From positions 684,030 through 748,029 of the forward strand of contig LR732703.1 in the NCBI GenBank assembly GCA_902506565.1: a DNA stretch of 64,000 bases, given 5' to 3'. Below the pieces are notes generated by a model. It saw only the letters and a program-made list of their open reading frames with translations, made no database searches and had not been told where the DNA came from. Made by a program: the position numbers and the translations under genes. Below, piece by piece: positions 44,326-62,032 of the stretch. Origin of the DNA: Burkholderiales bacterium 8X. Lineage in GTDB: Bacteria > Pseudomonadota > Gammaproteobacteria > Burkholderiales > Burkholderiaceae_C. Within the stretch, counting starts at the first letter, position 1. The number at the start of each line of letters is the position of its first letter.

Positions 44326-44328
44326 GCT

Positions 44329-46205: not shown

Positions 46206-46208
46206 GGC

Positions 46209-47378
46209 TCAGGCTCCCAGCAATTCGTTGGCGATCACGTTGCGCTGCACTTCGGAAGTGCCGCCGGCGATCGTGCGGGCGCGGGTGAACATGTAGTTCT
46301 GGATCCAGGTCGCCCCATCCGTCCCCGGCTCCTCGGCATCCCGAAGCTGGAAGCGGTGGGCCGCATCGGGTCCGACCGCATCGAGCGCGATCGTGGTCAG
46401 GCGCTGGGCCACGTCGGCCACCAGCATCTTGATCGCCGAAGGTTGCACGCCGAGCGGACGCTGGTTGATCAGGTCGTCGGTGGCATTCGCCATCATCACG
46501 CGGGCGCCCTTGGTGTCGGCTTCGCACAAGAGCAGCCGGTAGCGAAGCGATCCGAGATCGCGCTGGCTGCCCGGCGCGCTCGCGGCTTCCTCGACCACCC
46601 GGGTGACCTGGCGGCGCACCAGCTCGAGCCGGGCGATGTTGGCCGCCGGCAGGCGCTCGCGTTCGAGCAGGAACTTGGCACAGGTCCAGCCCTTGCCCTC
46701 CTCGCCGACCAGGTTGTCGACCGGCACGCGGACCTCGTCGAAGAAGACTTCGTTCAGGTGGTGCCAGCCGTCGATGGTGCGGATCGGCCGCACGGTGATG
46801 CCGGGCGTTGCCATGGAGACCAGCAGCAGCGAGATGCCTTCCTGCTTGCGCGCTTCCTTCGAGGTGCGCACCAGCATGTAGATCATGTTGGCCTCGTGCG
46901 CATGCGAGGTCCAGATCTTCTGCCCGTTGACGACATAGTGGTCGCCATCGCGCCGGGCGCTGGTCTGCAGCGACGCGAGATCCGATCCCGAACCCGGCTC
47001 GGAGTAACCCTGGCACCACCAGTCCGAGCCATCCAGGATGCGCGGCAGCAGCCGGGCCTTCTGCTCAGGGGTGCCGAAGCGGATGATCACCGGCCCGATG
47101 TGGCCGAGACCGTGGTGGTAGAGCGGCGGACAGTCGTTCTCGGCCATCACTTCCTCGAAGACCTGGCGCTGGCGCACGGTCCAGCCGGTGCCGCCGAACT
47201 CCTCGGGCCAGGCCGGTGCGCCCCAGCCCTTCGAGTGGAGGATTTCCTGCCAGCGCTGGTACTCGCGCTTGGTCACCTTCTGGCCGGCCGCGACCACGGC
47301 ACGAATCTCGGGTGGGCACGCGTCGCGTGCGAAGGCCTCCAGTTCACGACGAAAGGCGTCGAGGTCAATGTCCTGCAT
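46209..47378 (-). CDS. Acyl-CoA dehydrogenase
   Basis: A 389-residue FAD-dependent acyl-CoA dehydrogenase. It has 'WPEEFGGTGWTVRQRQVFEEVMAE', the FAD-contact motif 'CQGYSEPGSGSDLASLQT' (about residue 130), 'NGQKIWTSHAHEANM' and the C-terminal 'ARTIAGGTSEVQRNVIANELLG', where the catalytic carboxylate region of this subfamily lies. It introduces the alpha-beta double bond in a CoA thioester. It precedes the second ACAD by 3 bp and the FCD-fused flavin reductase lies 46 bp upstream, all on one presumed transcript from 49480. Confidence 0.93.
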   Translation of the reverse strand: MQDIDLDAFRRELEAFARDACPPEIRAVVAAGQKVTKREYQRWQEILHSKGWGAPAWPEEFGGTGWTVRQRQVFEEVMAENDCPPLYHHGLGHIGPVIIRFGTPEQKARLLPRILDGSDWWCQGYSEPGSGSDLASLQTSARRDGDHYVVNGQKIWTSHAHEANMIYMLVRTSKEARKQEGISLLLVSMATPGITVRPIRTIDGWHHLNEVFFDEVRVPVDNLVGEEGKGWTCAKFLLERERLPAANIARLELVRRQVTRVVEEAASAPGSQRDLGSLRYRLLLCEADTKGARVMMANATDDLINQRPLGVQPSAIKMLVADVAQRLTTIALDAVGPDAAHRFQLRDAEEPGTDGATWIQNYMFTRARTIAGGTSEVQRNVIANELLGA

Positions 47379-47424: not shown

Positions 47425-48357
47425 TCAGGCTTCGAGCGGCTGTGCGGCTTCCTGGCCGGCGCGCAGCGCGTCGATCATCCGGTCGAGCGCAGCGGCTGCG
47501 CCGTCGGCGTCGCGGCTGCGGAGCTTGCGCACCACCTCCGAGCGCAAGGGGAACAGGTCGGGCCGATGCCGTACCGTCAGCACATGCTGCATCCGCTCGC
47601 GAAGCACGCCGGACATGGTCTGCGCCATCAACAAGAGCGCCTCGTTGTGGCCCGCCTCTGCGATGGCATGGAAGAACCGGCTGGTGGACTGGATCCGCTC
47701 TGAAAGCGGCGCATCCTCCGACTGCCGCTCCATCGCGGCGGCCGCCTGCTCCACCTCGTCGATCTCGACATCGCTGGCGCGCACGCATCCGAGCCGCAAC
47801 ATCGTTCCGTACAAGGTGCGGTACGCCTCGTCGATGTCCCGCTGCCCCAGCCGGCCGTCGACCACGATCTTGCGAAGCGATTCGGCAAGCTCGCGATAGG
47901 CGCCCTTGTAGAAGACCAGCGCCTGCTCCTGGGCACCCGCGGTCATGTGCCGCACTTCGCCGATGAAGACCAGGTGGTCGCCGGCCTCGTGGCACGAAAA
48001 GGTCGTGCACTCGAAGCTGGCCAGGCAGTCCTGCAGCACCGGCAGACCGAGCCCGCCTTCGTGCCAGGCCACGCCATCGAACTTGTTCTCGATCTTGCTC
48101 GACGCGAAGCGTCCCGACAGGCCGTCCTGCTTCTGCGTGAGGATGTTGATCGCGAAGCCCTCGGCGGCGCGGAAGGTGTCGACCAGCCGACTCTCGGTGC
48201 GAAGGCTGAAGAGCACCAGCGGCGGCTCCAGCGAGACCGAGCTGAACGAATTGCAGGTCAGCCCCGCCGGACTGCCGTCGGGGCTGCGGGTCGTGATCAC
48301 CGCGACACCGGTCGGAAAGCAGCCGAGAAGCTGCCGGAATGCTGAGGGGTCGATCAT
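47425..48357 (-). CDS. Flavin reductase fused to a GntR-type FCD sensor domain
   Basis: A 310-residue two-domain protein. Residues about 1-160 are a flavin reductase (FMN_red/HpaC-like) with 'FPTGVAVITTR', 'LTCNSFSSVSLEPPLVLFSL' and 'AINILTQKQ'. Residues about 175-305 are all-helical and match the FCD effector domain of FadR/GntR regulators ('RIQSTSRFFHAIAEAGHNEALLLMAQTM', 'RHRPDLFPLRSEVV'), but no winged helix is present. It probably supplies reduced FMN to the luciferase-like monooxygenase 31 bp upstream, with the FCD part possibly sensing the substrate. C-terminal regulatory domains are known on some other flavin reductases; this pairing is unusual. ATG 48357 is chosen at the domain edge. 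Confidence 0.82.
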   Translation of the reverse strand: MIDPSAFRQLLGCFPTGVAVITTRSPDGSPAGLTCNSFSSVSLEPPLVLFSLRTESRLVDTFRAAEGFAINILTQKQDGLSGRFASSKIENKFDGVAWHEGGLGLPVLQDCLASFECTTFSCHEAGDHLVFIGEVRHMTAGAQEQALVFYKGAYRELAESLRKIVVDGRLGQRDIDEAYRTLYGTMLRLGCVRASDVEIDEVEQAAAAMERQSEDAPLSERIQSTSRFFHAIAEAGHNEALLLMAQTMSGVLRERMQHVLTVRHRPDLFPLRSEVVRKLRSRDADGAAAALDRMIDALRAGQEAAQPLEA

Positions 48358-48388
48358 GATCGGCTCGCTCGGAATCGGTCCGCGATGT

Positions 48389-49480
48389 TCAGGCAACGGC
48401 GAGTTCGGACACGTTGGCCGGTGCGTACGGCGGATCGTTGGCGATCTCCTGCTGCACCGTCGGGATGATGACCTTGGACCAGGTCTCCAGCTGGCGCAGC
48501 ATGGTCTTCTGGTCGAAGTCGCCCATCTGGGTCTGGAAGCAGTAGTGGACCGGGCGCAGGGTGCGGATCTCGGCGATCACGCGCTCGATGACGGTGTCGA
48601 CCGAGCCGACCGGCAGCAATGCGCGCGACTCGTCGAGCGTCGGCTCGCCCGCGACCGCGGTTTCGGCGACCTGGTAGTCGTCGGCGATCTGCGCGGTGCG
48701 GCGCTTCATGCTCAAGGCGACGCGGCGCTGGTAGCGCGAGCAGTCCAGGTACTTCTCGACTTCGGCCTTGTCGTCGCTCGCGTAGGCGGCACGCAGCAAT
48801 CCCACCTTGACCGAAGCCGGGTCCTTGCCCTCGGCACGCGCCGTCTTGTCGATCAGCGCCCGGGTGTTCTGCAGCTTCTCGAGACCGCCGTCGCCGCCGG
48901 AGACGAACAGGTGGTTCTCGTTGCGGACGGCACGCGAAACGAAGGTCGGGTCTACGCTGGTGATCCACAGCGGCGGCATCGGCGACTGCAACGCGCGCTG
49001 GCTGATGGCGCTCGGCGGCTGCCGATAGTATTCGCCCTCGTAGCTGAACTTGGGCTGCCCGAGGCCGAGCTCCAGCATGTCCAGCATTTCGAGGGTGCGC
49101 TGCTTCGACTGCTCGATCGAGACGCCGAAACGCTCGAACTCGAACTGCTGGTAGCCCGAGCCGACGCCCACGTTCAGGCGGCCGTCCGAGAGCTGGTCGA
49201 CCATCGCGATGTCGGCGATCAGGCGAGCCGGCGTATAAAGCGGCGCCACCACGATGCCGGTGCCCAGGCGGATCCTCTTGGTCACCGCGGCGCAATGGGC
49301 GATCATCGTGAGCGGCGAGGAGCACATGCCGTAGTTGGTGAAGTGATGTTCGGCGAACCACGCGCCGCCGAAGCCGAGTTCGTCCGCGACCCGGGTCTGC
49401 TCCACCGCGTCGCGCAGGATCTCGTACGAAGTCTTGTGCTTGTTGCGCTGCTGCATGAGCAGGAAGATGCCGAAATCCAT
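48389..49480 (-). CDS. Luciferase-like (LLM) flavin-dependent monooxygenase
   Basis: A 363-residue bacterial-luciferase-fold enzyme using reduced FMN and oxygen. It begins 'MDFGIFLLMQQRNKH' and has 'ADELGFGGAWFAEHHF', 'KRIRLGTGIVVAPLYTPARLIADIAMVDQLSDGRLNVGVGSGY' (split over residues 67-110) and 'PPLWITSVDP'. Family members perform Baeyer-Villiger oxidation, desulfonation or hydroxylation with a separate reductase, which is encoded next. It is first in the ten-gene operon and diverges from the LysR gene; CAGGAG precedes its ATG. The nearby SMP-30-type lactonase favours a Baeyer-Villiger role, but that is inference. Confidence 0.9.
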   Translation of the reverse strand: MDFGIFLLMQQRNKHKTSYEILRDAVEQTRVADELGFGGAWFAEHHFTNYGMCSSPLTMIAHCAAVTKRIRLGTGIVVAPLYTPARLIADIAMVDQLSDGRLNVGVGSGYQQFEFERFGVSIEQSKQRTLEMLDMLELGLGQPKFSYEGEYYRQPPSAISQRALQSPMPPLWITSVDPTFVSRAVRNENHLFVSGGDGGLEKLQNTRALIDKTARAEGKDPASVKVGLLRAAYASDDKAEVEKYLDCSRYQRRVALSMKRRTAQIADDYQVAETAVAGEPTLDESRALLPVGSVDTVIERVIAEIRTLRPVHYCFQTQMGDFDQKTMLRQLETWSKVIIPTVQQEIANDPPYAPANVSELAVA

Positions 49481-49554
49481 GAAAGAGCTCCTGATGATGG
49501 AAGTTGTATGGCGTGATCTTAGGAACAGGATTCGCAGTGAACGCGCCAATCGGC

Positions 49555-49569
49555 GCACACCTTCTTTGC
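49555..49569. promoter_or_regulatory. Weak copy of the GCAAAG-N3-CTTTGC operator
   Basis: The right half-site CTTTGC is intact and the left half matches 4 of 6 positions (GCACAC). It sits 11 bp upstream of the lysR ATG and about 82 bp upstream of the monooxygenase start, where an autoregulatory LysR site would be expected. Alone this match would not be convincing. Confidence 0.3.
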
Positions 49570-49579
49570 GGGTTCCGGA

Positions 49580-50497
49580 ATGAAGGCGCTCGACTCGTTG
49601 CGGGTGTTCGTCGCCACGCTGCGCAAGGGCAGCCTGTCGGCAGCCGGCCGCGCCCTGGGCCTCTCGCCCGCCACGATCTCGCGCCGCATCAGCTCGCTCG
49701 AGGAGGAGCTGGGCGTGCAACTGGTCGACCGCACCAGCCGCAATCTCAAGGTCACCGAGGCCGGCAAGGCCTTTCTCGAACATGCCGAGACGGTGCTGGA
49801 GGCCATGGCCGCCGCCGAGACCGCGGCGCGCAATACCAGGCAGCGTCCCGAAGGCCGGCTGCGCGTGCATTCGCGCACGCAGATCGGCCTGCGCGTGGTC
49901 GCACCGCTCTTGCCCCGCTTCTCGCAGAAGTTCCCGGACATCCACCTGGAGTTCGAGCTTTCGGAGCACCCGGTCAACCTGGTCGAGCAGGATTTCGACG
50001 TGGACATCCGGACCGGCTCGTCCAACGATTCGACCTTCATCATCAAGCGCTTGCTCAGCAGCGACGAGGTGCTGGTCGCGAGCCCCGCCTTCGTCAAGGC
50101 GCATCCGCGGCTGAAGCATCCGTCCGACCTGCCGCACGTGCCCTGCCTCGCCTATCGGCGGGACCAGGAAGTCACCACCTGGCAATACATCGACGAAGAC
50201 GGCGAGCAGCGCGAGCTGGCGATCCACGGCGTGCTGAGCGCCAACAGCGGCGAACTGCTGCGCATCGCGACCCTGGGCGGCATGGGCGTGGCGCTGCTTT
50301 CCGAAGCCGCCGTCTACGGACACATCCGCGACGGCACGCTGGTGCGCCTGATGCCGCAGCACCGGTTCGCCGTGCGGGCCTATTCGAACGGCATCTACGC
50401 CGTCTTTCGCCGCACGAGCACGCTGCCGACCAAGGTGCGCGCCTTCGTGGATTTCCTGGCGGACGAACTCAAGGGCGTGAAGCTGGAGACCGGCTAG
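49580..50497 (+). CDS. LysR-family transcriptional regulator of the catabolic region
   Basis: A 305-residue regulator. The HTH reads 'LRVFVATLRKGSLSAAGRALGLSPATISRRI' in two halves (residues 6-36), and the effector domain has 'GRLRVHSRTQIGLRVVAPLL' and 'FDVDIRTGSSNDSTFIIKRLL'. It is divergent from the ten-gene operon and flanked by the SMP-30 gene (4-bp convergent overlap). It is the only LysR gene between 39 and 64 kb, and so the leading candidate for binding the GCAAAG-N3-CTTTGC sites found upstream of the neighbouring operons. The effector is unknown. Confidence 0.92.
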   Translation: MKALDSLRVFVATLRKGSLSAAGRALGLSPATISRRISSLEEELGVQLVDRTSRNLKVTEAGKAFLEHAETVLEAMAAAETAARNTRQRPEGRLRVHSRTQIGLRVVAPLLPRFSQKFPDIHLEFELSEHPVNLVEQDFDVDIRTGSSNDSTFIIKRLLSSDEVLVASPAFVKAHPRLKHPSDLPHVPCLAYRRDQEVTTWQYIDEDGEQRELAIHGVLSANSGELLRIATLGGMGVALLSEAAVYGHIRDGTLVRLMPQHRFAVRAYSNGIYAVFRRTSTLPTKVRAFVDFLADELKGVKLETG

Positions 50498-51384
50498 CGG
50501 CCGAAGCGCGCCACGGCGACACCCGGCGCAGGCAAGCCACTCACCTCCCATAGTCCGCCGTCGGCCGGCAACCTGCCGGTCAGATTGGTGCTGCGCGAGA
50601 TCGAGGTCACGTAGAGGCGGTCCAGCTTCGCACCGCCGAAGCAAAGGCTCGTGGGATGCGTCGTCGGCATCGCGAGCAGGCGATCGAGCTTGCCCTTCGG
50701 CGTGAAGCGCGCCAGGTGGCCGATGCGCGGCAATGCCGACCACAGGCATCCTTCCTCGTCGACCGCGGCGCCGTCCGGACCCGCTCCCAGCGCCTCGGTT
50801 TCGGCAAACACCCTGCGTCTCGAAAGCGGCTGGTCGGGCGCGTAGTCGAAGGCCCAGATGGTGCGCACGCCGATGCTGCTGTCGGCGACGTACAGCGTGC
50901 GTCCGTCGGGGCTGAAGCACGGTCCGTTGGTGAGGCCGAAGTCTCGCGCCAGGACCTCGAGGCCGCCGTCTGCCGCGAGCCGATAGAGTCCGCCCCGCAC
51001 CGGCTCGCCGGCGTTGCGATGGCCGTGCAGCGTACCGGCGATGAAGTTGCCCCACGGGTCGCACTTGCCGTCGTTGAGCCGCACGTCGGGATGTTCGACG
51101 TCGATGCGCGCCAGGTCCTGGAGCGACGCGGTCGCCGGGTCGAAGTGCGCGAATCGGTCCTTCAAGGCAAGCAGGACGCCGCCACCTTCGCACAAGGTCA
51201 TCGAGCCACAGGGCGCCGGGACCTCGTCGGTTGTCGCATCTTCCGGCCCGCCGTCGACCGCAATGCTGCGCACCCGTCCGGCCAGCGAGTCGATCCACCA
51301 GATCCTCGAGCCCCGCGCATCCCAGCAAGGGCTTTCGCCCAGCAGGTCCTGGCTGTCCCCGACACGGCGCACCGATGTTTCCAT
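50494..51384 (-). CDS. SMP-30/gluconolactonase-family lactonase
   Basis: A 296-residue six-bladed propeller hydrolase. The metal-site motifs are 'LLGESPCWDARGSRIWWID' (Glu ligand, about residue 14), 'RLNDGKCDPWGNFIAGT' (Asn/Asp, about 103) and 'LTNGPCFSPDGRTLYVADS' (about 150). Family members hydrolyse lactones with a divalent metal. In this region it could open the lactone made by the LLM monooxygenase. It is divergent from the TctC gene; an imperfect GCAAAG-N3-CTTTGC operator lies about 54 bp upstream of its start. Confidence 0.9.
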   Translation of the reverse strand: METSVRRVGDSQDLLGESPCWDARGSRIWWIDSLAGRVRSIAVDGGPEDATTDEVPAPCGSMTLCEGGGVLLALKDRFAHFDPATASLQDLARIDVEHPDVRLNDGKCDPWGNFIAGTLHGHRNAGEPVRGGLYRLAADGGLEVLARDFGLTNGPCFSPDGRTLYVADSSIGVRTIWAFDYAPDQPLSRRRVFAETEALGAGPDGAAVDEEGCLWSALPRIGHLARFTPKGKLDRLLAMPTTHPTSLCFGGAKLDRLYVTSISRSTNLTGRLPADGGLWEVSGLPAPGVAVARFGR

Positions 51385-51430
51385 GCCGGCGAGTTTCGCC
51401 AGCCACCCGGCCCGCGCCGGCTCAAGGCAT

Positions 51431-51445
51431 GCAAAGCAACTTTTC
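51431..51445. promoter_or_regulatory. Operator-like dyad, site A (GCAAAG-N3-CTTTTC)
   Basis: It matches the shared GCAAAG-N3-CTTTGC dyad at 11 of 12 arm positions. It lies between the divergent SMP-30 (start 51384) and TctC (start 51521) genes, centred about 54 and 83 bp upstream of their starts. Conservation with sites B, C and D is seen directly; LysR binding is inferred. Confidence 0.6.
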
Positions 51446-51520
51446 AGGCTTCGAAAGCATCGCGCGCATTCGCAACCCTAGACTGCCCGTCGGCCTACGA
51501 CCGCATTCCAGGAGACACCG

Positions 51521-52483
51521 TTGATTCGTCGCACTTTCGCCAGCGCGCTGCTGGCCGCATTCGGCCTCGCCGCAGTTCCTGCCCTCGCGCAGCAGAACGT
51601 GACCAAGTTCGTGGTCCCCTTCCCGCCGGGCGGCGGCACCGACCAGTACGTCCGCCTGCTGGCCGCCGACCTGACGAAGAGGGGCATGCAGGTCGTGGTC
51701 GAGAACAAGCCGGGCGCGAGCGGCATCATCGCGGCCGACTATGTCGCACGCGCCAAGCCGGACGGCCAGACCATCCTGATGTCGTCGCTCGGCGTGCTCG
51801 CCAGCAACACCGTCATGTACGACAAGCTGCCGTACAACCCGCAGAAAGACTTCGCGCCGGTCTCGCAGATCGCCTACCAGCCGTCGATCATCGTGGGCCG
51901 CATGGACCTGCCCTACAAGAACATCAAGGAAATGGTCGAGTACGCCAAGGCCAACCCCGGCAAGATCAATCGGGGCTCACCCGGCGCCTCCATCCTCACC
52001 AACCTGGCGCCGATGGCCTTCGAGAAGATGGCCGGCATCAGCACCACGCATGTGCCCTTCGCCGGCGACGCGCCCGGGCTGCAGGCGCTCTTGGGAGACA
52101 ACATCGACATCCATGGCACCTCGATCACCGGGCCGCTGCAGCATGTCAAGGCCGGCAAGCTGCGTGTACTGGGCGTGATGGACAGCAAGCGCCTGCCGCA
52201 AGTGCCGGAAGCACCGACCTTCAAGGAACAGGGTTTCGACATCGAGGCGCTGCTCTGGTATGCACTTTCGGCGCCGGCAGCCACGCCGGCAGCCACGATC
52301 GATCGCCTGAACAAGGCGGTCAACGAGGTGATCGCCGACCCCGACTTCGTGGCGCGTGCCCGCGTCATCGGCATGGAGCCGCGCGGCGGCACGCCGGAAG
52401 AACTCGCGCGCTTCACCAAGGCCGAATTCGACCGCTGGGTGCCGCTCCTGCAGAGCCTGAACCTGCCGAAGCAGGCCAACTGA
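51521..52483 (+). CDS. TctC/Bug-family solute-binding protein
   Basis: A 320-residue periplasmic binding protein. It starts at TTG 51521 (GGAG 8 bases upstream), with a Sec signal ('IRRTFASALLAAFGLAAVPALA-QQ'). Bug motifs are 'KFVVPFPPGGGTDQYVRLLAADL', 'VVENKPGASGIIAADYVARA' and 'VPEAPTFKEQGF'. It is closely related to the TctC protein at 58897; much of the central region ('LPYKN-KEMVEYAKANPGKINRGSPG') is nearly identical. No TctAB is present. It is followed 4 bp later by the frameshifted SDR gene. Confidence 0.92.
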   Translation: MIRRTFASALLAAFGLAAVPALAQQNVTKFVVPFPPGGGTDQYVRLLAADLTKRGMQVVVENKPGASGIIAADYVARAKPDGQTILMSSLGVLASNTVMYDKLPYNPQKDFAPVSQIAYQPSIIVGRMDLPYKNIKEMVEYAKANPGKINRGSPGASILTNLAPMAFEKMAGISTTHVPFAGDAPGLQALLGDNIDIHGTSITGPLQHVKAGKLRVLGVMDSKRLPQVPEAPTFKEQGFDIEALLWYALSAPAATPAATIDRLNKAVNEVIADPDFVARARVIGMEPRGGTPEELARFTKAEFDRWVPLLQSLNLPKQAN

Positions 52484-52487
52484 CGCC

Positions 52488-53245
52488 GTGCTCGCGTTCG
52501 GCCTCGACAACCGGGTTGCCCTCGTGAGCGGTGCGAGCCGCGGCATCGGGCAAGCCATTGCGGCAAGGCTGCTGGACGCGGGCTGCCGCGTCGCGCTCAC
52601 CGACATCGATCCGGCGCAGGCGGCTCTGGCAGCCTCCGCGATCGACACATCCGGCAACCGCTGCCGACCCTATGCGCTGGACGTGCGCGATGCGGTGCAA
52701 TGCGCCGCGGTCGTGGCCGACCTGCGGCAGGCATGGGGGCCGGTCTCGGTGCTGGTGAACAACGCCGGCGTCCCTGGTGCCGCCACGCTGGACGACGACC
52801 ATCTCGCGGGCGACCTGGACCGGGTCTATGCGGTCAACGTCAAGGGGATCGTCAACCTGACCCAGGCCTGCGCCGCCGGCTTGAAAGCGACCCGCGGCTC
52901 GATCGTCAACGTGGCCTCGATCACCTCGCTGATCGCCACGCGCGCCAACCTGGCCTACGGCACTTCAAAGGGCGCGGTCGCCCAGCTCACCAGGTTTCTT
53001 GCGCGCGACCTCGGCCCGCACGGCGTGCGCGTCAATGCCGTTGCGCCCGGCCTGGTGATGACGCCGATGACGGAGAAGATCAAGGACGATGCCGACGCAT
53101 GGGGATGATGGTCGGGCGCACCTTCCTGGGCCGCGCTGCGGACCCGGACGACATCGCAGGGCCGGTGGTGTTCCTCGCATCCGCACTGGCCGGCTACATG
53201 ACCGGCGCGATCGTTCCGGTCGACGGCGGCTACACGGCGAACTGA
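52488..53245 (+). pseudogene. SDR-family dehydrogenase interrupted by a frameshift
   Basis: The reading frame from 52488 encodes a normal SDR ('[15 protein letters not shown]', '[10 protein letters not shown]', '[10 protein letters not shown]', 'AYGTSKGAV', '[13 protein letters not shown]') but stops at 53108 after 206 residues. The missing C-terminal part ('[22 protein letters not shown]', '[10 protein letters not shown]') continues in another frame from about 53099 to the stop at 53245. Inserting one base near 53093-53098 restores a full 252-residue protein. This could be a true mutation, a sequencing or assembly error, or programmed frameshifting; the first two are likelier. It is coupled to the upstream TctC gene. 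Confidence 0.85.
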
Positions 53246-53300
53246 ACCTCGGGAGCATCTCGCTCGACCGAGAGCAAGCCGGTCCCGACAGCGGCCAGCT

Positions 53301-54215
53301 TCAACCGCGCGCCGTCAGCTGCGCGATGCCGTCGATGATTGGCGGCCAATACGCCTTCGATACGGCATGGCCCATGCCCTTCAGGATCATGAGCTCGGCG
53401 CCCGGAATGCTGCGCGCCGTGTCGATGCCGCCAGCCACCGGCACCAGCGGATCGATGTCGCCATGGATGACGAGCGTCGGCGCCCGAACCGCGGACAGGG
53501 CCTGGCGACGGCTGCCGGAAGCAAGGATCGCCACCAGTTGCCGGGCCCCGCCGTCCGGGCAGAGGCCGCGCGCATGGTTGAGCGCGGCACGGGCCCGGTC
53601 GCGCTCGGTTTCCTCGGGCGAGGTGCTGCCGCGCAGGTGCTTCCAGGTCGTGATGTAGTGCTCGGTGTAGCCGGCGAGGTCTCGCGGTGCCGGCCTGAAG
53701 ATGGTCGACAGCACGGCATAGCCGGGTGAAGGCAGGGACGGATCGCCGGTGGTCGACATGATCGAGGTCAGCGTACGCACGCGTTCCGGCTGCTCGATCG
53801 CGAGCGTCTGCGCGATCGTGCCGCCCATCGATGCGCCGACCAGGTGGGCCTTCTCGATGCCGAGCACATCCATCAATCCGGAGACGTCTTGCGCCATGTC
53901 GGACAGCAGGTACGGCGCCTGCACGGGCTTGCGCAGCCAGGCGCGGGTCATCGCCAGCATGACGTCCGGCACTCCCGCACGACTGAAGCGCTTCGACCTG
54001 CCCGAATCCCGGTTGTCGAACCGGACGACGAAGTGCTTGCGCTCGGCGAGCGCTTCGCAGAACTCCTCGTCCCAGCCCACCATCTGCGCACCCATGCCCA
54101 TGATGAGGATCACCGGCGGATCAGTGCGAAGACCGAAGGTCTGGTAGCAAAGATCGATGCCGTTGGCCTTGGCGATGATCTCGTGCGAGCGCGCGGCGCG
54201 CCCTGCCTTGCTCAT
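53301..54215 (-). CDS. Alpha/beta-fold hydrolase
   Basis: A 304-residue cytoplasmic hydrolase. '[20 protein letters not shown]' provides the oxyanion region, '[12 protein letters not shown]' is typical of the ester/lactone hydrolase subfamily (aclacinomycin methylesterase RdmC-like), '[16 protein letters not shown]' holds the nucleophilic Ser (about 129), '[13 protein letters not shown]' the Asp and '[13 protein letters not shown]' the His. It overlaps the alcohol dehydrogenase gene by 4 bp (ATGA). It could hydrolyse an ester or lactone intermediate of the pathway; the substrate is not deducible. Confidence 0.9.
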
Positions 54216-55306
54216 GCGCCGACACCGTCGAACACGACGACGCTTCGGGCCACCTCGCTCCGGGCCATGGCCGCGAAGCCCTCGTTGATGTCCTCCAGCC
54301 GGATGCGGCGCGAGACCAGGTCGTCCAGGTTCAGGCGGCCCTGCAGGTAGAGCTCGACCAGGCGCGGGATATCGTCGCGGATGCGCGCGGAGCCCAAGGC
54401 CGAGCCGCGGATCTTCTTCTCGAGGAAGAAGTCGCTGCCTTCGATCGAGGCCTTCACGCCCGGCCCGAACAATCCGACGATGGTGGCCGTGCCGCCGGGC
54501 TGGAGCATCTTGAAGCACTGCTCGACCGTGGCCGCGATGCCGATGCATTCGAACGAATACTCGACGCCGCCTTGCGTGAGTTCGACCACCTTCGCGACCA
54601 CGTCGCCTTCGCTCGCGAGCAAGGTATCGGTGGCGCCGAACTTGCGCGCCAGTTCCAGCTTGGAGGGCACGTTGTCGATCGCAATGATGCGGGCTGCGCC
54701 GGCGATCTTCGCGCCGTTGATCGCCGCGAGCCCGACGCCGCCGCAGCCGACCACCGCCACCGACGAGCCGGGCGCGACCTGTGCATTCCGGAACACGGCA
54801 CCCGTGCCGGTGACCACGGCGCAGCCGAGGAGCGCGGCGCGGTCGAGCGGCATGTCCTTGCGGATCTTCACGAGTGCATTGCGGTGCACCAGCATCTGCT
54901 CGGCAAAGCCGGAAAGATTGAAGACCTGGCTGACCGGCTCCGCCCCGCGGAACAGGCGCTTGGCCTGGCCGGGCGGCTGCTTGACGTCGGTGTCCATGCA
55001 GAGTGCGAAGCGCTGCCCCAGGCATTGCTTGCAGGTGCCGCAGAAAACCGAAAGAGCGCCCACCACGTGGTCTCCAGGCTGCAGGTCCTTGACGCCGGCA
55101 CCGACCGCGGCGACGACGCCCGACACCTCGTGTCCCAGCACCCCCGGCAGCGGGAACTTGCGCATGCCCTCGATGTAGTGGAGGTCGCTGTGGCACAGGC
55201 CCACGGCGGCGGTCTGCAGGAGAACTTCGTTGGGGCCGGGTGCGGCGATTTCCACCTCTTGGATGACCAGTGGCTGGCCGAATTCTTCGAGGACTGCTGC
55301 TTTCAT
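54212..55306 (-). CDS. Zinc-dependent alcohol dehydrogenase (class III-like MDR)
   Basis: A 364-residue medium-chain dehydrogenase. The catalytic zinc ligands lie in '[13 protein letters not shown]' (Cys) and 'LGHEVSGVV' (His-Glu), and the structural zinc cluster is '[15 protein letters not shown]'. The NAD motif is '[22 protein letters not shown]'. It resembles benzyl/aryl or long-chain alcohol dehydrogenases of the Rv-type 'NDMA-dependent' group, but no cofactor call can be made. ATG 55306 begins the conserved '[15 protein letters not shown]'. It diverges from the acyl-CoA synthetase gene across site B and leads the ADH-hydrolase operon. Confidence 0.92.
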
Positions 55307-55398
55307 CGGGGAGGCTTCCTTGTCTCTTGTCAACGGGGAACGCATGACGTGTCGACCCAGTGTAGGTGGCGGTATCGGCACTGATCCCCCGGGTTTGT

Positions 55399-55413
55399 GC
55401 AACGGTGCTTTGC
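55399..55413. promoter_or_regulatory. Operator-like dyad, site B (GCAACG-N3-CTTTGC)
   Basis: It matches the shared dyad at 11 of 12 arm positions. It is centred about 73 bp upstream of the acyl-CoA synthetase start (55479) and about 100 bp upstream of the divergent alcohol dehydrogenase start (55306). The following bases (GGGCTTCG) resemble those after site A (AGGCTTCG). Confidence 0.6.
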
Positions 55414-55478
55414 GGGCTTCGCCGCGCCGGCGGAAGCCTCAGCCACTAGATTCCAGCGCTCCAACACCGGAGACAACC

Positions 55479-57401
55479 ATGGGCCTGCATCTGCTGGATC
55501 GCGTGATCGGAAACGAGTGGCCGAGCCTCGCCACCGATCACGACATCCGAGTCTTCGAATCGGTTCCGTACGAGGAGCGAATCGCGGCAGAGAGCACCTA
55601 CGAAGCATTGCGCCTCGGCGCAGCGCGCGATCCGGATTGCCCGGCCCTGCACTTCCTGGCCAATGCCAGCCCGGACGAAGAACCCCTCACCATCACCCAC
55701 GGCGAGTTCCACGCCCGCGTCACGCAGGTCGCGAACATGCTGCACGCGCTGGGCGTCGGTCCGACCGACGTGGTCAGCCTCCTGCTGCCGCTGGTGCCGC
55801 AGGCCTTCGTGGCGCTTTATGGCGCGCAGGCGGCGGGCATCGCCAACCCGGTCAACGCGTACCTCGAAGCCGGCCATATCGCCCACATCCTGCGTGCCGC
55901 GAAGACCAAGGTGCTGATCGCGCTGGCGCCGCGCGAGGGCTATGACATCTGGGACAAGGTCGCCCGCATCCGCCAGGAACTGCCGGAGCTGAAAGCCATC
56001 CTGGTGGTCGGGCGCTGCGGTCCGATGCGCGGCATCGAGCACGACTTCGACGCGCTCGCCGACCGCCAGCCGAGCGATCGTTTGATGAGCGGGCGCCAAA
56101 TCGCCGCAGGCGACATCGGCGCCCTCTTCCACACCGGCGGCACGACCGGCTTGCCGCAACTGGTGCCGCTCACGCACGGCAACCAGGTCTACCAGGCCTG
56201 GGGCATGGCGATGATGTTCCGCACCAGGCCCGGCAACACGCTGCTCATGGGGTTGCCGCTCTTCCATGTCGGTGGTGCGCTGACGCAAGGCCTGCAACAC
56301 CTCTGCGCAGGCGGAACGCTGGTGGTGCTTTCGGCGGCCGGCTGGCGCAACAAGGCCGCGATGCCCAACATCTGGAAGCTGGTCGAGCGCTACAAGCCGG
56401 AGCTGCTCGGCGGCGTTCCGACCATCCTGGGCGCGGTCCTGAACGTGCCGATGGAAGGACGCGACGTCTCCAGCGTGGCGAAGGCGACCGGCGGCGGCTC
56501 TGCCATCCCGGTCCCGATCGCCGATGCGTACCAGCATCGCTTCGGCATTCCGATCCTCGAAACCTACGGCATGACCGAGGCATCGAGCTGCCACACCATT
56601 TCCTATCCCGACAAGCCGGTGTACCTGGGTTCGGTCGGCCATCCGCTGCCGTACAGCCGTGTGCGCGTGGTCGAGGTCGACGGGCACGGCAAGCTCCTGC
56701 GCGAGTGCACGGCCGGCAAGATCGGCGTGGTGACCATGTCCGGACCCGGCGTCTTCAGCGGCTATGCGACCGGCGCGCCGGACGCGCCCTTCGTCGAACC
56801 CGGCTGGGTCAACAGCGGCGACCTCGGCCGGGTCGATGCCAACGGCTATCTCTGGATCACCGGCCGCGCCAAGGACCTCGTGATCCGCGGCGGCCACAAC
56901 ATCGACCCGACCAGCATCGAGGAGGTGCTCTACCAGCACCCGGCCGTGGCGGTCGCGGCAGTGGTGGGCGAGCCGGACGCCTACGCCGGCGAACTGCCGG
57001 TGGCCTTCGTGCAGCTCAAGCCCGAATTCGCGTCCACCGACCCCAAGGAAATCCTCCGGTACGCGGCCGCGCGCACGCCCGAGCGGGCAGCCGTTCCGGT
57101 CCAGCTGTACGCGGTCGACACCATCCCGCTGACCGCCGTCGGCAAGGTCTTCAAGCCCGAGCTGCGGCAGCAGGCCGCCGTGCGGGCGGTCCGACGCCTG
57201 CTGGCCTTCCTGGAAAAGGACGGCTGCACGCTCGACGTCACGGCCGCTTCGCACAAGGAACACGGAACGCTGATCAGCGTCACGATCGGCGGCGAGCCCG
57301 CGGGCGGCCGCGAAGCCGCCCTGGTGCTGGCGAAGACCAAGCTCGATCCGCTCACGATGAAGCACGAGCTTTCGTGGCTCGAAGAGGTGGCGGCCGCATG
57401 A
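55479..57401 (+). CDS. AMP-forming acyl-CoA synthetase
   Basis: A 640-residue ANL-superfamily ligase making an acyl-CoA through an acyl-AMP. Motifs are the P-loop-like 'FHTGGTTGLPQLVPLTH' (about residue 213), 'ILETYGMTEASS' (about 362) and 'NSGDLGRVDANGYLWITGRAKDLVIRGGHNIDP' in two parts, with the C-terminal lysine segment 'IPLTAVGKVFKPELR'. The C-terminus runs about 80 residues past the usual end. ATG 55479 is preceded by GGAGA. Its stop overlaps the PhaE-like gene (ATGA), so activated acyl groups may feed the PhaC-like enzyme two genes on. Confidence 0.92.
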   Translation: MGLHLLDRVIGNEWPSLATDHDIRVFESVPYEERIAAESTYEALRLGAARDPDCPALHFLANASPDEEPLTITHGEFHARVTQVANMLHALGVGPTDVVSLLLPLVPQAFVALYGAQAAGIANPVNAYLEAGHIAHILRAAKTKVLIALAPREGYDIWDKVARIRQELPELKAILVVGRCGPMRGIEHDFDALADRQPSDRLMSGRQIAAGDIGALFHTGGTTGLPQLVPLTHGNQVYQAWGMAMMFRTRPGNTLLMGLPLFHVGGALTQGLQHLCAGGTLVVLSAAGWRNKAAMPNIWKLVERYKPELLGGVPTILGAVLNVPMEGRDVSSVAKATGGGSAIPVPIADAYQHRFGIPILETYGMTEASSCHTISYPDKPVYLGSVGHPLPYSRVRVVEVDGHGKLLRECTAGKIGVVTMSGPGVFSGYATGAPDAPFVEPGWVNSGDLGRVDANGYLWITGRAKDLVIRGGHNIDPTSIEEVLYQHPAVAVAAVVGEPDAYAGELPVAFVQLKPEFASTDPKEILRYAAARTPERAAVPVQLYAVDTIPLTAVGKVFKPELRQQAAVRAVRRLLAFLEKDGCTLDVTAASHKEHGTLISVTIGGEPAGGREAALVLAKTKLDPLTMKHELSWLEEVAAA

Positions 57402-57760
57402 GCGATCCATCGAACACCGACCCGATGAAGGCCTGGCGCGACTGGTTCGTGCAATCGGAGCGCGACTGGAGCGAACAGCTCACCGGCTGGATGAAGGACG
57501 ACAACGTGGCGCGCCTGCTCGGTCAGGAAATCCACGCCGGGCTTTACAAGCAGCAAATGCTCGCGCAATCGATGGCCGGCCCGCTGGCGGCGATGAATCT
57601 GCCCAGCCGCGAAGACGTGGTCTCGCTCGGGGAGCGCGTCGGCCGCCTCGAGGATGCCGTGGCGCGGGTCGAGGCCCTGCTGACGCGCACCGCCTCGCCC
57701 ACCGCCGCGCCACCCGCCCGCACGCGCAAGGCGCCGGCACGGCCCAGGCGCTCGTCATGA
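57398..57760 (+). CDS. PhaE-like (class III PHA synthase subunit-type) small protein
   Basis: A 120-residue protein: tryptophan-rich N-terminus ('MKAWRDWFVQSERDWSEQLTGWM'-type, residues 9-32), a middle part 'YKQQMLAQSMAGPLAAMNLPSREDVVSLGERVGRLEDAV' that matches the PhaE/phasin-like coiled coil with its 'LPSRxDVxxLxxRVxxLE' pattern, and a basic Ala/Pro tail ('RTRKAPARPRR'). It is shorter than classical PhaE (about 350 residues), resembling only its C-terminal activating helix. ATGA overlaps on both sides tie it to the acyl-CoA synthetase and to the PhaC-like gene. Confidence 0.72.
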   Translation: MSDPSNTDPMKAWRDWFVQSERDWSEQLTGWMKDDNVARLLGQEIHAGLYKQQMLAQSMAGPLAAMNLPSREDVVSLGERVGRLEDAVARVEALLTRTASPTAAPPARTRKAPARPRRSS

Positions 57761-58794
57761 ATGCGGCGCAGGAGCTGATCGAGCGCCAGCGCTCGACGAT
57801 CGAGGCGCTCGATGCGGAGCTGGCCCGCGAGACCGCCTGCACGCCGCGCGAGCTGGTGCATGCGAGCGGAACGCTGCGGCTCTACCACTACCTGCCGCAG
57901 ACGCCCGACGTCTATCGAACGCCGCTCCTGATCGTCATGTCGCTGGTCAGCAAGCCCGACATCTTCGACCTGACGCCGGGCCAGAGCTTCATCGAGCACC
58001 TGGTGCAAGCCGGCTTCGACGTGTACCTCGTCGACTGGGGCCTGCCGCGCGCAGAGCACGGCAAGCTCGGCATCGACGCCTACGTGGCCGACCTGCTGCC
58101 GGCGTGCATCGCGGAGGTCCAGGCGCATTCGGGCGAAGAGCGCATCACCCTGGTCGGCTATTGCCTCGGCGGCATCTTCACGACCCTGTACGCCGCGCGA
58201 GAGAACCAGGGCCCCTTGCGCAACCTGCTGCTTCTCGCCACGCCGATCAACGGCCACGGCATGGTGCTACAGCGCCGGCTGCTGAGCTCGCAGGGGCTCG
58301 ATCCCGACCTGCTGGTGGATACGCTCGGCAATATTCCTTCCTCGATGATCGAAGGCGCCTTCCAGATGCTGCGTCCGCTGCAGAAGGCGAGCGGGCAGGC
58401 GACGCTCCTCAACAACCTGCACGACCGCGAGTTCGCCAAGGCACACCTGCGCATCGTGCGATGGGGCGCCCAGGCGTTGCCCTTTCCCGGCGAGGCCTTC
58501 CGCCAATTGGCGAAGGACTTCGTGCTGAACAACCGCATCGTCGAGGGCGGCCTCGACGTGCGCGGCGTCCGTTGCAGCCTGGACCGCATTCGCGTGCCCC
58601 TTTTGCACGTGGTGGCCGAGCATGACCACGTGGTGCCGCGGGACGCCTCGTCCGACCTGGTTCGGCTGGCCGGCAGCAAGGACAAGGACGAGCTGGTCAT
58701 CAAGGGTGGGCACGTGAGCCTGGTCGCCGGTGTCGGCGCTGCCACCCGGACCTGGCCGCGCATCGTGCAGTGGCTGGCGCCCCGCTCCACATGA
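57757..58794 (+). CDS. PhaC-like (class III PHA synthase-type) alpha/beta hydrolase
   Basis: A 345-residue protein of PhaC class III length. The lipase-like box is 'GYCLGGIFTTLYAA', with Cys as nucleophile (about residue 130) as in PHA synthases. It is preceded by 'VYLVDWGLPRAEHGKLG', the conserved D-W-G region. The Asp is in 'VVAEHDHVVP' and the His in 'IKGGHVSLVAG'. Class III synthases polymerise hydroxyacyl-CoA together with PhaE, and a PhaE-like gene immediately precedes. In this catabolic setting an acyl-CoA transferase or hydrolase function is an alternative. Confidence 0.8.
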   Translation: MNAAQELIERQRSTIEALDAELARETACTPRELVHASGTLRLYHYLPQTPDVYRTPLLIVMSLVSKPDIFDLTPGQSFIEHLVQAGFDVYLVDWGLPRAEHGKLGIDAYVADLLPACIAEVQAHSGEERITLVGYCLGGIFTTLYAARENQGPLRNLLLLATPINGHGMVLQRRLLSSQGLDPDLLVDTLGNIPSSMIEGAFQMLRPLQKASGQATLLNNLHDREFAKAHLRIVRWGAQALPFPGEAFRQLAKDFVLNNRIVEGGLDVRGVRCSLDRIRVPLLHVVAEHDHVVPRDASSDLVRLAGSKDKDELVIKGGHVSLVAGVGAATRTWPRIVQWLAPRST

Positions 58795-58815
58795 ACCGGC
58801 CGCAGGCGCGGCGTC

Positions 58816-58830
58816 GCAAAGCTGCTTTGC
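58816..58830. promoter_or_regulatory. Operator-like dyad, site C (GCAAAGCTGCTTTGC)
   Basis: A 15-bp palindrome, perfect apart from the central base, centred about 74 bp upstream of the TctC start at 58897. It shares both six-base arms with site D and eleven of twelve arm bases with sites A and B. Confidence 0.7.
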
Positions 58831-58896
58831 AAGACGCGGCAACCCACGGCGAAGCCGCGCAGGAACAATTCGATGGCACAAACCAAAGGAGACTTC

Positions 58897-59853
58897 ATGA
58901 ACCGTCGTAACGCCCTGCTCGGCGCCTTGCTGGCCGCCTCGTTGACGAGCGCCTTCGCGCAACAGCAGCCCCTCAAGATCGTCGTGCCGTTCGCGGCCGG
59001 CGGCGGCACCGACTCGTTCCTGCGCATGCTGGCCGACGAACTCACCAAGCGAGGCACCCGCACCATCGTCGAGAACAAGCCGGGCGGCAGCGCGGTGATC
59101 GCCGCCGACTACGTGGCCCGGGCGAAGCCGGACGGCAACACGATCGTCATGTCCTTCGTCGGCATGATGGGCACCAACACGATCCTGTTCGACAAGCTGC
59201 CCTACGACCCGCAGAAGGATTTCACCGCCGTGTCCCAGGTCGCTTACCAGCCGACCATCATCGTTGCCCGCACCGATCTGCCGTACAAGAACCTGAAGGA
59301 AATGGTGGAATACGCGAAGGCGAACCCGGGCAAGATCAACCGCGGCTCCCCCGGCCCTGCCATCCTGAGCAACCTGGCGCCGATCGCCTTCGAGCAATCG
59401 ATCGGCATCAGCACCAACCATGTTCCCTTCAACGGCGATGCGCCTGCCATCCAGGCCATGCTGAGCGACTCGATCGATATCTACGGCACCTCGATCACCA
59501 GCTCGCTGCCGCACATCAAGTCCGGCAAGTTCCGGGTGCTCGGCGTGATGGATTCGAAGCGGCTGCCGCAAGTGCCCGATGCGCCGACCTTCAAGGAAAT
59601 GGGCTACAACTTCGAAGCGCCGCTGCGCTACTACCTGTCGGCGCCGGGTGCGACGCCGAAGGACGTGGTCGCCAAGTTGAACAAGTCGATCAACGAAGTG
59701 CTGGTCGACCCGGCGTTCATCGAGCGTGCCCGGGGCATCGGCATGGAGCCGCAGGGCGGCACGCCGATCGAGATGGAGCGCCTGCTCAATTCGGAGATCG
59801 CGCGCTGGAACCCGATGATCAAGAGCCTGAACCTGCCGAAGGCCGGACAGTGA
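58897..59853 (+). CDS. TctC/Bug-family solute-binding protein (paralogue of 51521)
   Basis: A 318-residue periplasmic protein with a Sec signal ('NRRNALLGALLAASLTSAFA-QQ') and Bug motifs 'KIVVPFAAGGGTDSFLRMLADEL', 'IVENKPGGSAVIAADYVARA' and 'PDAPTFKEMGYN'. ATG 58897 follows AAAGGAG closely and is preferred to an upstream Met at 58873. It shares most residues with the TctC at 51521, so the two look like a duplication flanking the ADH/ligase block. It has its own operator (site C) and is followed by a bidirectional terminator. No TctAB is nearby. Confidence 0.92.
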   Translation: MNRRNALLGALLAASLTSAFAQQQPLKIVVPFAAGGGTDSFLRMLADELTKRGTRTIVENKPGGSAVIAADYVARAKPDGNTIVMSFVGMMGTNTILFDKLPYDPQKDFTAVSQVAYQPTIIVARTDLPYKNLKEMVEYAKANPGKINRGSPGPAILSNLAPIAFEQSIGISTNHVPFNGDAPAIQAMLSDSIDIYGTSITSSLPHIKSGKFRVLGVMDSKRLPQVPDAPTFKEMGYNFEAPLRYYLSAPGATPKDVVAKLNKSINEVLVDPAFIERARGIGMEPQGGTPIEMERLLNSEIARWNPMIKSLNLPKAGQ

Positions 59854-59880
59854 CCCGCCGGTAGAACGACAAAAAGCAAA

Positions 59881-59908
59881 AAGGGGCGCTGCGGCGCCCC
59901 TTCTGTTT
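59881..59908. terminator. Bidirectional Rho-independent terminator
   Basis: A 9-bp perfect stem AAGGGGCGC / GCGCCCCTT with a TGCG loop, followed on the plus strand by CTGTTTTT. On the minus strand it reads into TTTTTGCTTTTTG. It therefore ends both the TctC transcript (stop 59853) and the convergent alkylsulfatase transcript (stop 59935). Confidence 0.92.
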
Positions 59909-59934
59909 TTCGCGTCCGATGTCGCGCCAGCCCG

Positions 59935-61830
59935 TCAAGGCTCCAGGATGTTGAACATCGGATCGAACTCGTCGAGGCATTCGACGAACTCGCGAAACAG
60001 CGCCGCGTCCCCTTCGACATCGAGCTGCCCCGCTTCGATCGCCGCGAGCAACGCCTCGCGGCCGGACGACAACTTGCCCAACTGCTCGCGCGACATGCGC
60101 ACCCGCGCTCGTGCCCCCGTGCCGTGCGAGCCCGGCAGGTGGTTGAGAGCCCCGTTCGACAAGGTGATCCGATGGGTGTCGGTGCCCGACGCATCGGTCA
60201 GCTGCCAGTCGAACTTGGCGTCCATGTGCTGGGCTCGCGGGCCGTTGAGGCGGATGCCGAGGTACTCGAGGAAGCTGCCGAACGGAAGGATGGAGACCAC
60301 GTCAGGGCTGATCGACACCCCCTTGGGCGCCGAGCTTTGCGAGCTGCTGCGCAACTCCCGCGCGCCGAGCAGGTAGGAATTGCGCCAGGTCGCGGACTCG
60401 GCCTGGTAGCCCAGCTGCTCCATGGCGTCGGCAGAAAGCTCCCGCGCCGCCTTGTTCGCCGGGTCCGCGAAGACCACGTGATTCATCGCTTCGACCACCC
60501 ATCGGAACTGGCCGGCGTCGAAGTCCTTGTGGGCACGCGCGACCACCGCATCGGCGCCGCCCATGTATTCCACGTACTTCTTCGCGCCCTGCTCCGGCGG
60601 CAACGCATGGAGGTGGGCCGGGTTGCCTTCGTAGGGACCGAGATAGTGCGCATACACCGCGTTGACGTTGTGCGCGACCGCGCCGTAGTAGCCGCGTGCG
60701 AACCACTGCTTCGACAGCTTGCTCGGCAGCATCAGCTCTTCGCCGATCTCCCGCGGCGTGCGGCCGTGGCTCATCAGCCGCAGGGTCTGGTCGTGCAGAT
60801 AGCGGTACATGTCGCGCTGGCCGGCGACGTATTCGGCGATGCGCCCGCTGCCCCACACCGGCCAGTGGTGCTGCATCAGGAGCGCGTCCACATGCGGCAC
60901 GAACCGGTCGATGGCCTGGTTGAGGTAGTGCGCCCAGGCCAGCGAGTCGCGCGTCTTCGCTCCTCGCAAGGGGCAGAGGTTGTGCATGGTGTGGCAGGCG
61001 TTCTCTGCCAGGTTCAGTACCCGAAGGCCCGGGTAGTGCATGTTCATGTCCGCCGGCGCTTCGGTGCCGGGCGTCAGGTGGAACACGATCTCGACACCAT
61101 CCACCACATGAGTTTCGACCGGCTCGCGGATCAGCTGCGTCGGCGCGATGAAGCCGTCGCCACCCCGGCCGACCGCCTTGCCGAGGCCGCTGTCGACATG
61201 CGCCATCGCGCCCGCTTCGAGCGACCAGCCGAACTGGAAGAGCGCTCGCCGGCGCATCGGCACGCCGGCAAGGATGGACTCCGAGAACGATTCTTCGGTG
61301 AAACCCCAAGGGGCGATGACCTTGACTCCGCGGCGCACGTCGTCCGGGCCGATGACGCCGCGCACGCCGCCGTAGTGGTCCCGGTGGCTATGGGTGTAGA
61401 TCACGGCCGTGACCGGTCGATCGCCACGATGAGCGCGGTACAACGCGATCGCCGCGCGCGCATGCTCCGTGAACTGCAAGGGGTCGACCACGATGACGCC
61501 GGTATCCCCTTCGATGAAGGTGACGTTGGCGAGAGAAAAGCCCCTGACCTGGTAGACGCGCTCGGTCACCTCGAAGAGGCCGTGGATCGCATTGAGTTGC
61601 GCCATCCGCCACAGGCTCGGGTTGACCGTATCGGGTGCCTCGCCCTTCAGGAAGCCGTAGGGCTTCATGCTCCATGACGGCGCGCCGCCGCTGTCTGCCG
61701 CGATGTGGGCGTCGGGCAGGGTCGCGATGAACCCGCGCTTCGCGTCGTCGTAGTCGAGCCGGTCGGAAAAATCAAGTTCGGCGCGCACGCGTGCGTGGGA
61801 TTCCAGGGTGCTGGGATGGGCGGGTTTCAT
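59935..61830 (-). CDS. Alkylsulfatase-type metallo-beta-lactamase-fold protein (SdsA/BDS1-like)
   Basis: A 631-residue linear alkylsulfatase-family protein. The binuclear zinc motif is 'YTHSHRDHYGG' (H-x-H-x-D-H, about residue 147), with further ligands expected around 'LNLAENACHTMHNLCPLRG'. A dimerisation domain ('GYYGAVAHNVNAVYAHYLGPYEGNP') and a C-terminal SCP2-like domain follow. Such enzymes release alcohols from alkyl sulfates such as dodecyl sulfate. No export signal is visible, unlike secreted SdsA1. It diverges from the ROK gene, with site D about 53 bp upstream of its start. The alcohol released could enter the ADH pathway encoded nearby. Confidence 0.9.
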   Translation of the reverse strand: MKPAHPSTLESHARVRAELDFSDRLDYDDAKRGFIATLPDAHIAADSGGAPSWSMKPYGFLKGEAPDTVNPSLWRMAQLNAIHGLFEVTERVYQVRGFSLANVTFIEGDTGVIVVDPLQFTEHARAAIALYRAHRGDRPVTAVIYTHSHRDHYGGVRGVIGPDDVRRGVKVIAPWGFTEESFSESILAGVPMRRRALFQFGWSLEAGAMAHVDSGLGKAVGRGGDGFIAPTQLIREPVETHVVDGVEIVFHLTPGTEAPADMNMHYPGLRVLNLAENACHTMHNLCPLRGAKTRDSLAWAHYLNQAIDRFVPHVDALLMQHHWPVWGSGRIAEYVAGQRDMYRYLHDQTLRLMSHGRTPREIGEELMLPSKLSKQWFARGYYGAVAHNVNAVYAHYLGPYEGNPAHLHALPPEQGAKKYVEYMGGADAVVARAHKDFDAGQFRWVVEAMNHVVFADPANKAARELSADAMEQLGYQAESATWRNSYLLGARELRSSSQSSAPKGVSISPDVVSILPFGSFLEYLGIRLNGPRAQHMDAKFDWQLTDASGTDTHRITLSNGALNHLPGSHGTGARARVRMSREQLGKLSSGREALLAAIEAGQLDVEGDAALFREFVECLDEFDPMFNILEP

Positions 61831-61875
61831 GCGCCGATCCTAGGATTCCCGATGTGCATCGATGAACGATTTGAT

Positions 61876-61890
61876 GCAAAGCAACTTTGC
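61876..61890. promoter_or_regulatory. Operator-like dyad, site D (GCAAAGCAACTTTGC)
   Basis: Both six-base arms are perfect. It is centred about 53 bp upstream of the alkylsulfatase start, the same spacing as site A from the SMP-30 gene. It is also upstream of the ROK gene. It is the right-most of the four matching dyads. Confidence 0.7.
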
Positions 61891-62019: not shown

Positions 62020-62032
62020 CTCCCCCGCCTGC

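Follow-up and report, generated by a model that had tools for sequence, protein, structure and literature searches.

A dyad phased to -10-like hexamers, and its probable LysR-type regulator, in a gene cluster of Burkholderiales bacterium 8X

LysR-type activators of catabolic operons typically possess a divergently transcribed target, a site at their own gene, and a dyad that is found upstream of the target's -10 box. A T-N11-A arrangement is a common, though not an obligatory, feature of LysR boxes. In Pseudomonas, SdsB and SdsB1 are LysR-type regulators of alkylsulfatases. SdsB1 indeed is named, in the part of PMC8407307 that was available, as a LysR-type transcriptional regulator with a known role. 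For another family member, AphB, the structure is 3SZP (available part of PMC5171790), and the box at tcpP is given as TGCAA-N7-TTGCA (available part of PMC8911003). Considered here is a stretch of 64,000 nucleotides from Burkholderiales bacterium 8X (‘the window’; contig LR732703.1, positions 684,030 to 748,029), within one gene cluster of which a 15-bp dyad, GCAAAG-N3-CTTTGC, is seen five times. As judged from sequence comparisons, these five dyads very probably are recognition sites of one LysR-type regulator, the product of the window's lysR gene (49580-50497).

All five dyads are present where a sequence-only reading of this DNA had placed them, with no mismatch at 58816 and 61876 (dyads 4 and 5), one at 51431 and 55399 (dyads 2 and 3), and two at 49555 (dyad 1; Table 1). 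The reported distances, 53-54 and about 74-83 bp as measured between the start codon and the middle of the dyad, agree with the sequence as well. That all sites are intergenic also holds in practice. Dyads 5 and 3 touch only the longest versions of two open reading frames (ORFs), lying in or at the edge of those of a ROK-family gene and of an alcohol dehydrogenase (ADH) gene, respectively. As homologs of the ROK protein align to it only from residue 34 or 62, and as the ADH start that is used (55306) lies downstream, both dyads effectively are found between genes.

What that reading captured was the shared dyad; what it missed was the phasing of the dyads to a -10 box. Here ‘offset’ is used to describe the number of nucleotides (nt) from the last base of the dyad to a -10-like hexamer, with offsets 0-39 scanned. 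Of 110 directions, 51 have a TANNNT that starts at +33, versus no more than 3 for every other offset, and 51 of the 55 dyad sites display it at +33 in at least one direction. Given the usual position of -10 boxes, the dyad would be located at about -60 to -46 of the target promoter. Downstream of the dyad, in columns 22-24, is a half-site-like TGC (T in 20 and G in 25 of 27 rows), and this third half-site-like element may be an activation contact.

Within the window, the predicted promoter direction is best supported for the operon headed by a luciferase-like flavin monooxygenase (LLM), for TctC1, for the acyl-CoA synthetase (‘ligase’), and for the alkylsulfatase. It is weaker for TctC2 and for SMP-30, the hexamer at +33 for the latter being GAAACT, and is off by one nt for ADH. 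The earlier proposal that the whole cluster represents a single regulon is largely upheld.

The bacterium's own genome consists of 4,787,691 bases (4.79 Mb). It contains 3 exact dyads, two of them in the window, versus 0 for a reversed-pattern control, and 14 with no more than one mismatch (those 3 plus 11 others), versus 5 for the control. Four of these 14 are packed within 10.5 kb (binomial p about 2e-8), and 8 of the 10 remaining, including the third exact copy, are inside called coding frames. A composite score, that is, of dyad plus -10 over the same 27 columns, is below 5 for all 10 of those other dyads, versus 22 to 38 for the five window sites. Genome-wide, the ten lack promoter context and the composite is seen solely at the five sites, with no additional regulon member in this genome found to be convincing. 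Counted by mismatches, the composite at two or fewer has 6 matches, all in the cluster region. A sequence model of dyad plus -10 (R1; 27 rows, 4 from the window) has 5 matches in this genome at E<=0.1, and these are the five dyad sites. Because circularity had to be met, a matrix without window rows was built as well, and the top ranks that this gives within the window are held by six promoter directions, which belong to the five sites (at least 15.1 vs -1.6 for the next). The model that corresponds to this matrix, R2, has its five best own-genome matches in the cluster region (E 4.7e-4 to 0.46).

Comparisons were made within the genus, for which the name Variovorax is based on named records with DNA equal to that of genus genomes. 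Counts from relatives are not independent, owing to the shared ancestry of the genomes. Orthologs of the window LysR are present in 40 of 101 genus genomes, and in 39 of these 40 the best R1 match is at E <= 0.0011 (the fortieth, G021, is at 0.05). Such a match is seen in 19 of the 20 LysR-bearing genomes that supplied no model row, with rows having been assigned to genomes by reading. Dyad sites are kept at orthologous promoters: the composite is upstream of TctC1 in 39/39, of LLM in 29/29, of TctC2 in 2/2, and of the alkylsulfatase in 1/1 of the loci which hold these genes. Two outcomes that the earlier reading had named as refuting it, namely many intragenic copies genome-wide and loss of the dyad from orthologous promoters, are not borne out. 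In 788 kb around LysR orthologs, there are 17 exact dyads versus a mean of 0.03 (max 2) for 59 permuted palindromes and, at one mismatch or fewer, 54 versus a mean of 1.6 (max 12). Exact dyads are found in 28 of 100 genus genomes scanned, 18 of which carry the LysR ortholog (Fisher p 0.003). For the GCAAAGCWGCTTTGC form of the dyad, this is the case for 17 of 18 genomes (p 1e-7). Of 27 relatives' loci cut around exact dyads, 12 contain an ortholog of LysR, with 69-77% identity, at no more than 1.5 kb. The composite is present also in 20/20 named ortholog loci, i.e., of Variovorax, Pseudacidovorax, Pseudorhodoferax, Ramlibacter, and two unplaced metagenome-assembled genomes, 11 of which loci share DNA with loci already used. 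Around 60 distant LysR genes, by comparison, just 1 position in 2.25 million is above the composite score of those named loci. Three off-cluster dyads of relatives precede gene types that are also seen in the cluster, i.e., TctC1-like genes (G045, G098) and an SDR (G069).

Dyad 1 had been described as a weak fifth site, which is not a description that fits with regard to function. Of 40 loci with a LysR ortholog, 33 have a dyad with no more than 2 mismatches at exactly this place, 25 bp before the lysR start, mostly as GCACA[GC]CTTCTTTGC, with one further locus at 3 mismatches. The six loci with at least 4 (L156, L157, L162, L170, L173, and L187) all are without the LLM operon. Consistent with a LysR-type regulator, so far as position goes, the candidate dyad thus is both before the regulator's own gene and shared with a divergent target. 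LLM is missing from the fetched stretch in 11 of 40 loci, yet LysR and TctC1, the latter with its upstream composite, are retained in all 11, pointing to LysR plus TctC1 as the constant core; one locus, L177, is without TctC1 in its stretch.

Alternatively, the dyad might be used by a regulator that is encoded elsewhere, or indeed by a global one, with LysR being merely a neighbour. Extra control of gene clusters is frequent, and TctC1 alone co-occurs with the dyad nearly as well as LysR does. Various observations nevertheless render this explanation improbable. R1 matches drop to noise in the 40 LysR-less genomes searched (of 61 such genomes), being seen in 13 of the 40 and all with E between 0.022 and 0.1, and this co-occurrence supports the original nomination of LysR. 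In addition, the dyad precedes lysR itself, including in 5 of the 11 loci lacking LLM, and the composite in the own genome is restricted to the LysR cluster. Lastly, G052, a genome without LysR, has an 81% identical alkylsulfatase beside a TctC2-like gene and no dyad before it, which fits with the window's genome having recruited its alkylsulfatase gene to the regulon.

Binding of the dyads by a ROK-family repressor (about 62.05-63.17 kb) is less probable still, and we reject this candidate. The ROK and alkylsulfatase genes are divergent and flank an exact dyad, but among the 101 genus genomes ROK orthologs (E <= 1e-60) are confined to three, G000, G056, and G003. Consequently, ROK is lacking from 38 of the 40 LysR-bearing genomes, each of which has an R1 match. 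Near ROK, the highest dyad-column score is 11.0 for G056 and 7.0 for G003, neither amounting to a good dyad, and all three ROK genes are preceded, as seen by eye, by another inverted repeat that is AT-rich and of TTAATTTCTC type. In the window this repeat is at 61991-62020, the ROK orthologs of L279 and L280 have similar ones upstream, and it probably is ROK's own operator. Least credible of all is that the dyads resemble one another by chance, in a genome rich in GC, or else that they are a promoter feature unrelated to any regulator. With up to 3 mismatches allowed, the window has no more dyads than do shuffles (22 vs a mean of 24.4), which confines the dyad signal to the near-perfect class, and the composite at up to 3 mismatches is no commoner in the own genome than its control (7 and 8 vs 6 and 9), but the excess of exact dyads around LysR orthologs, the fixed +33 spacing, and conservation across genera all speak otherwise.

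Recognition of the dyads by LysR is our preferred reading, yet a number of observations weigh against it. There is no centred T-N11-A LysR box, the consensus 15-mer instead having C at position 2 and G at position 14. TctC1, as noted, tracks the dyad nearly as closely as LysR does. In the window, TctC2 is without TANNNT, and the ADH -10 is found at +34. Among relatives, 10 of the 28 exact-dyad genomes lack LysR, indicating that the bare dyad also arises by chance; SMP-30 has an upstream composite in just 13 of 28 loci, some of these weak; and a fourth off-cluster match, G095 (E 0.0039), is without clear target. An automatic composite count, too, is 0/2 for ADH and 0/1 for the ligase, which is due to query ORFs having begun upstream of the dyad. 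As to the models, 23 of the 27 R1 rows derive from the same relatives, and the other 4 from the window. R2 E-values are modest in the own genome (4.7e-4, 0.0096, 0.42, and 0.46 for four sites), that search does not list the alkylsulfatase site, and unfiltered on the window R2 finds 61876 as dyad only.

With LysR as the regulator, its binding to the dyad would be accompanied by a second contact on the half-site-like TGC 7-9 nt downstream and, together with a co-inducer, LysR would then recruit RNA polymerase. For lysR itself the proposed effect is instead a lowering of expression, as there the dyad covers the gene's leader, i.e., dyad 1 probably serves as an autorepression site. In its own genome the regulon would consist of one cluster: the LLM operon, SMP-30, TctC1-SDR, the ligase-PhaC operon, TctC2, the alkylsulfatase, and probably ADH-hydrolase (Table 1).

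Table 1. Features of the window, with operon borders and transcription starts as predicted from sequence
Feature	Position	Strand	Remarks
lysR	49580..50497	+	proposed regulator; HTH_1 and LysR_substrate; CrgA/AphB-like
Dyad 1	49555..49569	-	lysR/LLM intergenic; proposed activator site of leftward LLM operon; -25..-11 of lysR start codon
Dyad 2	51431..51445	+	SMP-30/TctC1 intergenic; CTTTTC variant, the same at equivalent place in relatives
Dyad 3	55399..55413	+	ADH/acyl-CoA synthetase intergenic; one mismatch
Dyad 4	58816..58830	+	exact; precedes TctC2
Dyad 5	61876..61890	-	exact; precedes alkylsulfatase
-10-like TAAGAT	49516..49521	-	LLM operon; 33 nt past dyad 1
-10-like TAGACT	51479..51484	+	TctC1; 33 nt past dyad 2
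-10-like TAGATT	55447..55452	+	ligase operon; +33 from dyad 3
-10-like TACACT	55364-55359	opposite strand to ligase	ADH; +34 from dyad 3
Weaker -10 candidate AACAAT	58864-58869	+	TctC2; +33 from dyad 4
-10-like TAGGAT	61842-61837	-	alkylsulfatase; +33 from dyad 5; six nt upstream of its ATG
Rest of presumed leftward operon	41444..47378	-	two acyl-CoA dehydrogenases, enoyl-CoA hydratase, acyl-CoA ligase (CoA-binding/ATP-grasp), SDR; gene order similar in relatives
Flavin reductase fused to FCD domain	47425..48396	-	
LLM, luciferase-like flavin monooxygenase	48389..49480	-	first gene of leftward operon
SMP-30/gluconolactonase-like protein	50494..51384	-	
TctC1 solute-binding protein	51521..52483	+	TTG start; most constant target
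SDR after TctC1	52488..53245	+	frame broken near 53.1 kb vs intact relatives
Alpha/beta hydrolase	53301..54215	-	downstream of ADH
Zn alcohol dehydrogenase (ADH)	54212..55306	-	
AMP-binding acyl-CoA synthetase (ligase)	55480..57401	+	
Small ORF and PhaC-like protein	57398..58794	+	PhaC-like protein at 57757-58794; small ORF earlier labelled PhaE
TctC2 solute-binding protein	58897..59853	+	
SdsA-type alkylsulfatase	59935..61830	-	

The likely role of these genes, as predicted, is uptake of a substrate and its oxidation, via alcohol, ketone, and lactone or ester, to acyl-CoA. The LLM with its flavin reductase, the lactonase-like protein, the acyl-CoA ligases and dehydrogenases, ADH, and the alkylsulfatase together suggest a pathway in which an alcohol or ketone would be oxidised and a lactone or ester opened, along with CoA activation and beta-oxidation. 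The FCD (GntR-type ligand) domain on the flavin reductase is without a DNA-binding part, and the fusion may be a ligand-controlled reductase. A CoA-transferase family III gene (39415-40707) is present outside of the LLM operon, on the side where this ends with its SDR, and because relative L190 has one near TctC1, this gene may belong to the pathway. The SDR that follows TctC1 is intact in L191 and L242 (252-254 aa), the window's frameshift thus reflecting either a pseudogene or a sequencing error. For the small ORF earlier labelled PhaE, there is no Pfam match. At 61842-61830 and 51397-51384, the predicted -10 boxes of the alkylsulfatase and of SMP-30, respectively, end just 6-7 nt short of start codons, and given that nearness their mRNAs may be leaderless; a similar gap, of about 6-8 nt, is seen with SMP-30 in 8 relatives inspected. 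A 3-mismatch composite of the own genome, at G000:C1:3203528-3203581 (L204; 3.2 Mb), lies far from the cluster and just downstream of a TctC gene, has no clear target, and possibly is due to chance.

Some genomes have the LLM operon and others do not, and for ADH-TctC2, ligase-PhaC, and the alkylsulfatase, association with a dyad is limited to one or two of the studied loci. Tentatively, and with considerable room for doubt, LysR, dyad, and TctC1 may be viewed as a portable ‘sensing-and-uptake’ core, one that acquires degradation modules by means of a dyad placed exactly 33 nt before a -10. The window would then hold a regulon that has newly been widened, with a sulfated or alicyclic compound, as yet linked to no known pathway, as its substrate. 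What results in any case is a predicted regulon, nearly complete across the genome, of a LysR protein that apparently has not been studied, and a precise promoter rule (dyad, 33 nt, -10) by which target genes and inducer become directly testable. One signal links the operon of the luciferase-like monooxygenase with the lactonase-like protein, both TctC binding proteins, and the alkylsulfatase, and this would be a case of new genes joining a regulon through gain of a correctly spaced site. No description of this LysR regulon, dyad motif, promoter rule, or its targets was found in the open-access literature searched.

The lysR product has an N-terminal HTH_1 domain (E 7.8e-21) and a LysR_substrate domain (E 6.1e-36). 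Its best match among solved structures is 3HHG (E 2.5e-46), which we take to be CrgA of Neisseria meningitidis, with 3T1B/3SZP also among the nearest (E 2e-38 for 3SZP). CrgA differs in its recognition helix (SAVSRIVKRLE), the comparison in this case being of proteins. With AphB of Vibrio cholerae, on the other hand, a recognition-helix stretch, ATI[ST]RRI, is held in common (ATISRRI in the window LysR, ATITRRI in AphB), and the commonest dyad form in relatives, TGCAA-AGCWGCT-TTGCA, has the same geometry as the AphB box, so far as the available part of its source gives that box. Of the 5 window dyads, 3 (55399, 58816, and 61876) have the entire GCAA-N7-TTGC inner core. None of the 5 has the full TGCAA-N7-TTGCA box, which several relatives do have, e.g., L019 and L022. 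The dyad differs from the AphB box in that the inner AG..CT bases are conserved too, and AphB targets virulence genes whereas the proposed targets here are catabolic and transport genes. The window LysR as an AphB ortholog is ruled out: the AphB chain is related only, and the CrgA-type 3HHG scores better. Likewise a Vibrio LysR relative, L067, had no PDB match at E 1e-60 and so is not taken as AphB, for which reason Vibrio loci were excluded from the comparison.

As with SdsB and SdsB1, the window LysR is a LysR-type regulator with an SdsA-type alkylsulfatase as target, here a proposed one. Unlike with SdsB, the alkylsulfatase is seen with a dyad in the window's genome only, and it is TctC1 that is the constant target. 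The LysR family is known, and this predicted LysR regulon is a new one though of a familiar kind. It differs from what is usual for catabolic LysR activators in having five dyads that one regulator would serve, a strict 33-nt spacing, and a box which in its geometry resembles that of AphB rather than a centred T-N11-A.

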